A stretch of DNA of 64,000 nucleotides from Halarchaeum nitratireducens (GTDB taxonomy: Archaea; Halobacteriota; Halobacteria; Halobacteriales; Halobacteriaceae). Below the pieces are notes generated by a model. It was given only the letters and a program-made list of their open reading frames with translations. It was not told the origin of the DNA and did not search any database. Below, in pieces: positions 5,968 through 19,281 of the stretch. Position numbers and translations under genes: made by a program. Numbering within the stretch: the first letter of the stretch is position 1; every line of letters begins with the position of its first letter. Location of the stretch: contig NZ_BMOQ01000007.1 in NCBI RefSeq assembly GCF_014647155.1, forward strand, positions 1-64,000. Reading direction: 5' to 3'.

Positions 5968-5987
5968 TTTTTAGGACAGCCTAAAAA
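5968..5987. promoter_or_regulatory. DtxR-box-like perfect palindrome in a divergent gap
   Basis: TTTTTAGG and CCTAAAAA are separated by ACAG, giving a perfect 8-bp inverted repeat whose core TTAGG-N4-CCTAA resembles the operators of DtxR/IdeR-type repressors. It lies in an AT-rich island midway (about 120 bp each way) between the DUF1508 gene and the 6108 gene. It is flanked by a direct repeat TTATGTGT at 5961-5968 and 5988-5995. A DtxR-like regulator is encoded at 7080 in the rightward operon, so autoregulation is a reasonable inference. Confidence 0.55.
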
Positions 5988-6107: not shown

Positions 6108-6899
6108 ATGGACGAGACACACATCGAGCGCGCGCTGGCGCGAGTCCGGGGCGAACGCGAGCGCGTCGACGCCGAACGGACCGCCCTCGATCGCTTCCGG
6201 AAGGACGTCGAGTCGATCGAGCCGGCCGCCGCGACGCGGGCCGCGGCGGACGGCTCTGCGAACGCTGGGACCGCTGTCGCGGCTGGAACGCCGAACGAAC
6301 CGGCGTCGTCCCCGGAGTGCCGTCGCGTCCGCGAGGCGTTCGTAGACACCGCCCACGACGCCGTTACGGCGCCGGACGAGGACCGTTCTGTCTCGGAGAC
6401 GATGCGGGAGGAATTGGGCTGGGAGGTCGCGCGCGCCGTCTCGCCGGGGACGACGACGGCGTTCACGACCGGGATCAAGCGGGCGGTGCTGTCCGCCGTC
6501 GACGAGCGCCGCCGGGAGCTACGGACGCTCGCGGGCGCGCTCGACGTCGAAGCGCGGTCGCTCGACGAGAGCCGCGAGGCGATCGAGGGGGTCGCGGAGG
6601 CGCTCGTCCGGGCGGACGGGACGTCGCCGGCCTCGCTCGGCTTCGACGGCCTGCGTGAGCGCCACGACGCGCTCGCGGGCCACCGCGAGACGTGCGATCG
6701 GGTCGGCGAGGAGCGACAGGCGGTGCTCGCCCGCTCGACGAACCGGGGGCTCGTCGGCGTCGAACAGCGGGCCCTCGCCGCGACCCTCTACGAGCCGCTG
6801 TCCGTCGACTACCCCGCGTTGGCGACGGTCGCGCGACTCGACGCCGTGCTCGACGAGCGACAGCGAACCGTCCGCGACCACCTCCTCCGACGGGGATGA
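6108..6899 (+). CDS. Haloarchaeal coiled-coil hypothetical protein (DUF7260-like)
   Basis: A 263-residue, Arg/Glu-rich, apparently cytosolic helical protein of unknown function. The N-terminus (RALARVRGERERVDAERTAL) is a heptad-like helix. The middle (about 65-170) carries REAFVDTAHDAV and EELGWEVARAVSPGTT, and the C-terminus ends in a long helix after SVDYPALATVARLDAVLDE. It is clearly related to the protein at 18484-19281 in all three parts. I believe both belong to the haloarchaeal DUF7260 group, but the number is from memory. ATG 6108 is chosen; the 38 residues upstream in frame look non-coding. Its stop overlaps the next start (ATGA). Confidence 0.7.
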   Translation: MDETHIERALARVRGERERVDAERTALDRFRKDVESIEPAAATRAAADGSANAGTAVAAGTPNEPASSPECRRVREAFVDTAHDAVTAPDEDRSVSETMREELGWEVARAVSPGTTTAFTTGIKRAVLSAVDERRRELRTLAGALDVEARSLDESREAIEGVAEALVRADGTSPASLGFDGLRERHDALAGHRETCDRVGEERQAVLARSTNRGLVGVEQRALAATLYEPLSVDYPALATVARLDAVLDERQRTVRDHLLRRG

Positions 6900-7021
6900 T
6901 GGGGCGACGCCGCCGGAACGGGCGACTCTGGGCCGCGCTCTTCTGTCGGCTGTTCGGCGACGGTGAGCGCGACGGCGACGACGACGGGACGCCGGCAGCG
7001 ACCGCGGGTGATGCCGAGTGA
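6896..7021 (+). CDS. Possible 41-residue basic-to-acidic small protein
   Basis: A short frame begins at ATG 6896, overlapping the TGA of the preceding gene by 4 nt. The same ATGA coupling is used by many genes in this window. The product starts MMGRRRRNGRLWAALFCRLF and ends in an acidic tail. No family is recognised. The coupled start and position between two co-directional genes are the only support; it may be a real micro-protein or chance. Confidence 0.35.
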   Translation: MMGRRRRNGRLWAALFCRLFGDGERDGDDDGTPAATAGDAE

Positions 7022-7079
7022 GTGCGATCGGCGCCGACGCGGCGCGTCGAGACCGAGCGATTCGATCGGGTGCGTGCAC

Positions 7080-7481
7080 GTGACGGTCTCGACGCGCTAT
7101 CTGCTGGCGGTGTACGAACTCGCGGAGACGACCGACGAGCGCGTCTCGACGACCGCGATCGCCGACGCCGTCGATCGCTCCCGACCGACGACGACGGAGG
7201 CGATCCAGCGCCTCGACGACCACGGCCTGGTCGATTACGAGGCGTATCAGGGCGTTCGGCTCACCGACGACGGCCGCGAGCGGGCGGCGTCGCTCCACGA
7301 GGAGTACGAGGTCCTCAACCGGTTCTTCGACGACGTCTTGGGCGTCGAGGGGGCGGCCGAGGAGGCGGCCGACCTCGTCGGGATCGTCAGTCCCACCGTC
7401 CTCGGACGCCTCGACGAGACCGTGATCGCACCCGTCGCGGACCGCACCGACGCCGAGGAGACGATGCAGTCGTCTGAGTGA
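7080..7481 (+). CDS. DtxR-like winged-helix regulator lacking metal ligands
   Basis: Transcription regulator of 133 residues. An N-terminal winged helix (about 1-60, with TTAIADAVDRSRPTTTEAIQ as recognition helix region and GVRLTDDGRERA as wing) is followed by a helical segment where DtxR proteins bind metal and dimerise (to about 120). There is no FeoA-like third domain. The positions that hold metal-binding His/Glu and Cys/Glu/His in DtxR, IdeR and haloarchaeal SirR/Idr proteins read here as EEYEVLNRF and EEAADLVGIV, so the usual ligands appear to be lost. The GTG at 7080 is chosen; ATG 7011 is an alternative. Last gene of the 6108 operon. Confidence 0.8.
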   Translation: MTVSTRYLLAVYELAETTDERVSTTAIADAVDRSRPTTTEAIQRLDDHGLVDYEAYQGVRLTDDGRERAASLHEEYEVLNRFFDDVLGVEGAAEEAADLVGIVSPTVLGRLDETVIAPVADRTDAEETMQSSE

Positions 7482-18483: not shown

Positions 18484-19281
18484 ATGGCGACGCTCGCAGA
18501 CAGACGCGGGACGGGGGGCGGCCGAGAGCCGACTGGAGACGTGTTCGAGAGCGCGCGGCGGGCGCTCGATCGCGAACGCGAGGTCCTCGACGCCGAGCGC
18601 GACGCCTTCGACGCGTTCGCCCGGCGCGTCGACGCGCTCGGGACGACCGACACCGCCGGCGACCCCTACGGCGGACTGCTCGCCGACCGCGGCGACGGGC
18701 GCGCGAGTTCGGGGGTCCGCGAGGCGTACGCGGAGACGGTGATGGCCGTCCCGCACTACGACGCGGAGTACGGCGAGTCGTATCGCGCGCACCTCGCGGC
18801 GGAGTTCGGCCCCGCGCTCGCCGCCGCGCTCCGCGACGAGCCGGGTCTCCCCGCCTTCCTCCAACAGCAGGTCGTCGCCGCGGCTCGCGACGCCGAGGAG
18901 AGCCGCGCGACCGTCGTGGTGGCGCTCGATCGCGAGCGCGACGCCCTCGGCGACACGGCGGCCGCCCTCGCCGATATCGAGACGGAGCGCGCCGTCGTCG
19001 ACTCCCGGCCCTTCGCCTCCTGCGAGCGGGCAGCGCTCGTCCGCCTGCGCGACGACCTCGACGACCTCGCGGCGCGCTGCGAGTCGCTCGCGGAACGCCG
19101 ACAGGCGGGTGACCTCCGTCCGGAGCGACAGGTCCCCGCGTCGTTCGACGCACCGGGCTTCGAGGAGTACGTCTACGGCGAGACGGGGACGACGTACCCC
19201 GTCCTCTCGGCGATCGCGCGGGAGAGCGAGCGCGTCGAGCGAACGCGCGCGGCGGTCGATCGGGCGCTCGACTCGCGCTGA
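18484..19281 (+). CDS. Coiled-coil hypothetical protein, paralogue of the 6108 gene
   Basis: A 265-residue helical protein that aligns along its length with the 6108-6899 product: N-terminal RRALDREREVLDAERDAFDA, middle VREAYAETVMAVPHYDAEYG and EEFGPALAAAL-like segment, and C-terminal TTYPVLSAIARESERVERTR. No membrane segment, no catalytic motif. Probably the same DUF7260-like group. ATG 18484 is preferred over the upstream in-frame GTG/ATG because homology with the paralogue begins just after it. A modest AT-rich stretch (CTATACTCCTCCTAGTAAGG, about 18434-18453) may be its promoter, separating it from the MoxR operon. Confidence 0.7.
   Translation: MATLADRRGTGGGREPTGDVFESARRALDREREVLDAERDAFDAFARRVDALGTTDTAGDPYGGLLADRGDGRASSGVREAYAETVMAVPHYDAEYGESYRAHLAAEFGPALAAALRDEPGLPAFLQQQVVAAARDAEESRATVVVALDRERDALGDTAAALADIETERAVVDSRPFASCERAALVRLRDDLDDLAARCESLAERRQAGDLRPERQVPASFDAPGFEEYVYGETGTTYPVLSAIARESERVERTRAAVDRALDSR

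Follow-up and report, generated by a model that had tools for sequence, protein, structure and literature searches.

Introduction

In DtxR and IdeR, two metal sites draw most of their ligands from the dimerization domain, one from the DNA-binding domain and two from an SH3-like domain, as described in the sections of PMC10317159 consulted, which also name S37, P39, T40 and Q43 as the residues of IdeR that contact bases. As for the DNA target, the sections of PMC8464063 consulted propose TTAGG-N4-CCTAA as the redefined IdeR/DtxR consensus and report that IdeR binding was left unweakened by the substitution Q43A and was weakened by P39G. The literature covered on the haloarchaeal TTAGG box and on metal-independent DtxR proteins, in which subscription papers had only a small share, contained nothing on a clade of DtxR relatives that lack metal ligands.

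Here we compare with these systems a DtxR-like gene found in a 64-kb stretch of haloarchaeal DNA (hereafter the window, meaning that whole stretch). What is new here is the wiring of the operon of a ligand-less regulator to an iron box. The features under study are as follows:

5971..5984, no strand assigned: iron box TTAGGACAGCCTAA, of the IdeR/DtxR consensus TTAGG-N4-CCTAA, starting 137 nt before the ATG of the DUF7260 gene
6108..6899, + strand: DUF7260 protein, first gene of the unit (PF23921, E 3.4e-59)
6896..7021, + strand: micro-ORF of 41 aa, Arg-rich, then WAALFCRLFG, then an acidic tail; overlaps the DUF7260 stop
7080..7481, + strand: DtxR-like regulator CDS, 133 aa, GTG start, all canonical metal ligands replaced
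7095..7256, + strand: winged-helix DNA-binding domain of the regulator (residues 6-59; PF01325)
7263..7427, + strand: putative dimerization domain of the regulator (residues 62-116; PF02742), with the vacated metal sites Y76, N80, A93, A97, V100 and G101

Domains and metal ligands of the regulator

The profile matches identify the window protein as, by descent, a DtxR-family protein. The DNA-binding domain PF01325 scores 43.7 bits on it against a cut-off of 26, which places a DtxR-type winged helix in the protein and bears out the original prediction, made from the DNA alone, that this helix is intact. The metal-binding and dimerization domain PF02742 gives a weak match (25.5 bits, slightly below its cut-off of 27); a profile built from 26 relatives runs through this region and aligns end to end with the solved structures of DtxR, IdeR, MntR and SloR (best E 1.5e-20). 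No SH3 or FeoA domain follows the dimerization domain of the window protein. A FeoA domain displaced downstream was ruled out, only 46 bases separating the regulator stop from the next gene, which lies on the opposite strand. The protein had also been singled out as short and lacking a FeoA-like domain: the domain is indeed absent, but shortness alone is ordinary because MntR- and SirR-type members are also without a FeoA/SH3 domain. The reading frame holds a second in-frame GTG at 7074, and structure prediction of the regulator, run from two sequences, returned a poor model (mean pLDDT 53.7). The host belongs to the genus Halarchaeum, and the nearest named relative is Halarchaeum rubridurum (83% identity). 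Among viral sequences, a pattern search gave 31 matches, none of them a relative.

Ligand positions were read from this profile and from a second alignment made with MAFFT, in which the paralogs were included. In IdeR/DtxR numbering, the replacements in the window protein are M10>R, H79>Y, E83>N, H98>A, C102>A, E105>V and H106>G: the profile sets H79, E83, C102, E105 and H106 of IdeR against Y76, N80, A97, V100 and G101, while the MAFFT alignment sets M10 against R6 and H98 against A93. At the primary site (M10, C102, E105 and H106) the window protein thus carries R, A, V and G, and at the ancillary site (H79, E83, H98 and two ligands of the SH3 domain) it carries Y, N and A and is without the SH3 domain. 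An alternative alignment that retained the ligands would have spoken against the loss, and neither the profile-HMM nor the MAFFT alignment recovers any of them; as the two concur, a register with the ligands restored was ruled out. The full sequence of 133 aa contains no cysteine.

The ligands of other family types are absent as well. Asp8, Glu99, Glu102 and His103 of MntR, the column equivalents of M10, C102, E105 and H106, correspond to R6, A97, V100 and G101 in the window protein. Among haloarchaeal paralogs, the FeoA-type proteins (8 of 8) retain H79, E83, E105 and H106, with D in the M10 and C102 columns. The SirR-type proteins (35 of 35 extracted, 29 of them distinct, by a pattern that itself required E at E83) have Y at H79, keep E83 and E105 and end in a CxxC tail, with C at C102 and H at H106 in none of the 35. 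At the two positions that the SirR type keeps, the window protein has N and V, and it is without the cysteines of the tail. The earlier comparison with the ligands of haloarchaeal SirR/Idr proteins therefore needs care, since the SirR-type paralog itself has lost H79, C102 and H106. SirR-type loci include L002, L060, L148 and others; in L150, a more distant member, both the ligands and the CxxC tail are present. The host genome carries three DtxR-type genes: a full-ligand FeoA-type gene, a SirR-type gene with the CxxC tail (at C5:97751) and the window gene.

Thus in both alignments the window protein lacks the ligands that define the metal-dependent DtxR/IdeR, MntR and SirR types. Therefore the name "metal-dependent" should not be used for it, and the RefSeq name "metal-dependent transcriptional regulator" is probably wrong for the ligand-less clade as a whole.

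Ligand loss across the clade

The loss of both metal sites, as originally proposed for this protein, is common to the whole clade to which it belongs. Among 93 distinct members, H79 is kept in one, and E83, H98, C102, E105 and H106 are each kept in none; at M10, C102, E105 and H106 together there is not one M, C, E or H respectively. Instead, the columns hold other residues: D in 3 of 93 at M10, Y in 90 at H79, S in 79 at E83, M in 76 at C102, A in 71 or V in 18 at E105, and G in 84 at H106. At H98 most of the clade keeps one acidic residue (E in 77 and D in 9 of 93), whereas the window protein does not. A new metal site made of conserved His, Cys or acidic residues was ruled out, as no Cys is conserved and H73 is not invariant (63/93).

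In a tree of 68 rows all 46 clade members group together with support of 100/100, leaving the SirR-type, FeoA-type and four bacterial proteins outside, although this tree has few columns, a bootstrap that is not fully settled, and 46 members hand-picked for spread from the 93 distinct sequences. Scores against the clade profile separate the groups cleanly: members reach at least 158 bits, SirR-type proteins at most 126 and FeoA-type proteins at most 96. Moreover, dN/dS of the regulator against its Halarchaeum rubridurum ortholog is 0.225, similar to that of five neighboring genes (0.14-0.36), and therefore the gene is under purifying selection and not decaying; a pseudogene was ruled out by this value together with the clade-wide fixation of the losses. 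These comparisons support the view that ligand loss with an intact winged helix is a clade-wide, selected haloarchaeal trait and not a one-off decay. In one Halarchaeum genome without an intact gene (G141), a fragment at C8:3072-3236 matches positions 71-125 of the clade profile only and is perhaps a remnant.

The operon and its iron box

The box at 5971-5984 is the only TTAGG-N4-CCTAA match in the 64-kb window, where 0.04 would be expected by chance with one mismatch allowed. It lies in the promoter of the transcription unit that contains the window gene, a same-strand unit in the order DUF7260, micro-ORF of 41 aa, DtxR-like gene. In H. rubridurum the DUF7260 gene is missing at the locus and a pair of boxes with a spacing of 36 nt lies before the DtxR-like gene; the box-flanking sequence CCTAAAAATTATG is identical in that promoter and in the promoter of the window operon.

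For comparison, 84 haloarchaeal loci were assembled by similarity to the window protein and not by context, except L085, L086 and L091 (plasmid search) and L154 (chosen for another reason); the set includes repeats per genome (three loci from G342 and two from G363) and leaves out L202, which is SirR-type, and loci of only about 3.3 kb. DUF7260 lies directly upstream of the ortholog in 15 of the 84, and a strict motif of the micro-ORF occurs just upstream of the ortholog in 17, compared with 0 of 18 paralogs and 0 of 84 antisense strands. The micro-ORF is unannotated, and its counterparts in relatives often overlap the regulator start by 4 nt. The window has a second DUF7260 gene at 18541-19248, and these two are the only ones found in the host genome. 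A DUF7551/7552 protein is close to the regulator in 9 of 84 loci; the host genome has a gene resembling it (L239) with an iron box of its own.

Together the 84 loci contain 180 boxes in 1.257 Mb, all of them with a spacer of N4 though N3-N6 was allowed. A box stands at the start of the gene or operon in 58 of 84 loci (26 without), or in 63 (21 without) when boxes located at any point from the operon start up to the gene are included, gene boundaries and operons being approximate in unannotated loci, where genes were called by a codon-score script. On the other hand, none of 18 SirR/FeoA-type paralogs has a box within 1.5 kb upstream, some of these loci reaching only about 1.4 kb. Iron boxes often occur in tandem (for example upstream of the regulator in L039), and in 35 of the 43 close pairs the two starts are 36 nt apart; tandem pairs also occur in genomes without the ligand-less clade.

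Iron genes near the regulator

Within 6 kb, 70 of 84 loci have at least one iron-gene neighbor. DpsA is the most frequent (45 loci), followed by binding proteins of the Peripla_BP_2 type (27), FAD proteins (24), NifU (16) and FecCD (10). DpsA is mostly convergent to the ortholog and within 1.3 kb of it, and in one genome (G088) a dps triplet stands beside the ortholog. The 14 loci without such a neighbor include those of the window, of H. rubridurum and of the plasmid of Halarchaeum sp. CBA1220 (L085, the third Halarchaeum locus); for the window locus, therefore, the link to iron rests on the box.

In Haloferax mediterranei the ortholog E6P09_RS17320 is directly downstream of E6P09_RS17310, which encodes an ABC transporter binding protein, and of E6P09_RS17315. 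These two genes appear with log2FC of -3.20 and -4.11 in a table of genes for iron uptake that are repressed during denitrification, in the parts of which examined E6P09_RS17320 itself had no entry (PMC11218638).

Iron boxes in the host and other genomes

The host genome contains 22 boxes, against one match of the reversed control pattern. Most of them precede genes for siderophore-type binding lipoproteins, a FecCD permease, FAD reductases, a ferric-binding-type lipoprotein and a dps triplet, names that were assigned mostly by resemblance to scanned proteins; a DUF7551/7552-like protein is also among the neighbors, and a few others have no obvious link to iron, among them a DoxX-like and a radical-SAM gene. 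The triplet consists of three tandem dps-like genes (C2, L145 7740-9417), preceded by a single iron box at a distance of 87 bases.

Boxes were found in all 54 genomes tested, 26 of which are without the ligand-less clade. Therefore a metal-sensing paralog can read the boxes and the regulon can exist without the clade; the main reader is likely the FeoA-type paralog. With kinship and genome size ignored, the mean number of boxes per genome was 17.8 with the clade (n=28) and 11.3 without it (n=26; p 2.8e-5), and within the host's own family 18.3 (n=6) and 10.5 (n=15; p 0.002) respectively. In this comparison presence or absence of the clade was confirmed by profile in 33 of 54 genomes, and in the other 21, all counted as having it, presence rests on the loci.

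DNA contacts

S37, P39, T40 and Q43, the base contacts of IdeR, correspond to S34, P36, T37 and E40 in the window protein. In the clade, the S37 column is S in 89 of 93 members, the P39 column is A in 66 and P in 13, and the T40 column is A in 50 and T in 24, while the Q43 column is E in 89 of 93, compared with S in 7 of 8 FeoA-type paralogs. With an E at Q43 unlike the FeoA-type paralogs, and mostly A at P39, the clade may therefore read a different site. Binding of the same box by the window protein is plausible; since the contact residues of the window protein are S, P, T and E and much of the clade has A at P39 and T40, we are less sure of it for the clade as a whole.

Proposed role and alternatives

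The roles first suggested for the window protein, a sensor of something else or a constitutive repressor, may hold, but its context favors continued work in iron homeostasis over a move to a new task: a box stands in the operon promoter, and the genes around its relatives include those for DpsA, binding proteins of the siderophore type, FecCD and NifU. We give an even chance to the proposal that the window protein is a metal-blind DtxR-family transcription factor retained within the iron regulon as a second-tier regulator; its ligand loss and its wiring are read from sequence, and we infer its binding and its effect. A metal-loaded DtxR paralog, most likely the FeoA-type one, would read the operon box, and iron would thereby set the amount of metal-blind protein made. 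This protein would bind DtxR-type sites without metal, alone or paired with a metal-sensing paralog, and would adjust a subset of iron-uptake and iron-storage genes, so that the signal of the second-tier regulator would be its own abundance. Least secure in this scheme are the targets of the metal-blind protein and the direction of its action.

The fixation of the replacements could also be explained otherwise. Their non-random choice (Y in 90, S in 79, M in 76, A in 71 and G in 84 of 93) is what one would expect if the site had been rebuilt, the association with iron persists, and TrxR-like FAD proteins are nearby in 24 of 84 loci; a protein that senses another iron-related signal (heme, a siderophore, or an Fe-S or redox cue) through the vacated cavity would agree with all three. 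However, most of the new residues are small or hydrophobic and simple packing would explain them equally well, no Cys is conserved and His73 is present in only 63 of 93 members, and we consider such a sensor unlikely. The dimerization domain raises another option, as its hydrophobic residues F82, L87 and A96 are conserved in 93 of 93 members and a full-ligand paralog is present in the same genome: the window protein might be a dominant-negative or partner subunit that dimerizes with a metal-sensing DtxR and shifts its metal threshold, and whose homodimers bind DNA poorly. This appears improbable, as conservation of the recognition-helix residues S34 and E40 (each in 89 of 93) points instead to direct DNA binding.

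Proximity to DpsA, which adjoins the ortholog in 45 of 84 loci, might suggest that the protein acts locally, repressing its own operon or the neighboring dps gene constitutively and independently of metal. Yet dps, although within 1.3 kb, is mostly convergent and so shares no promoter with the regulator, the box before the regulator's own operon (58 of 84) argues for conditional and not constitutive action, and the window locus is not near dps, all of which makes this role very unlikely. Also decidedly doubtful, in our estimate, is a DtxR split into sensor and responder, in which the DUF7260 protein and the translationally coupled, cationic micro-protein would bind or release the metal-blind effector, and iron would enter only via the box read by the metal-sensing paralog.

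If the proposal of a metal-blind second-tier regulator is true, archaeal DtxR networks include members that take part without sensing metal; moreover, the multi-regulator iron networks of haloarchaea become testable with respect to which members sense and which relay.

Comparison with known systems

The window protein resembles DtxR and IdeR in i) a winged helix with S-x-P-T base contacts, ii) a putative dimerization domain and iii) an association with TTAGG-type boxes and iron genes, but differs from them in having all metal ligands replaced and no SH3 domain. With MntR it shares length and domain make-up, and the clade profile matches MntR chains (E about 1e-11); on the other hand, the Asp/Glu/His ligands of MntR and SloR are gone and the context is iron, not manganese. 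The SirR-type paralog (144-150 aa) is likewise short and has Y in place of H79, but it keeps E83, E105 and the CxxC tail, has no upstream iron box and forms a separate clade. At the level of description only, as given in the parts of the literature consulted, the proposed arrangement is comparable to the Idr1/Idr2/SirR/TroR network of Halobacterium salinarum and Haloferax volcanii, in which several DtxR-family factors co-regulate iron genes.
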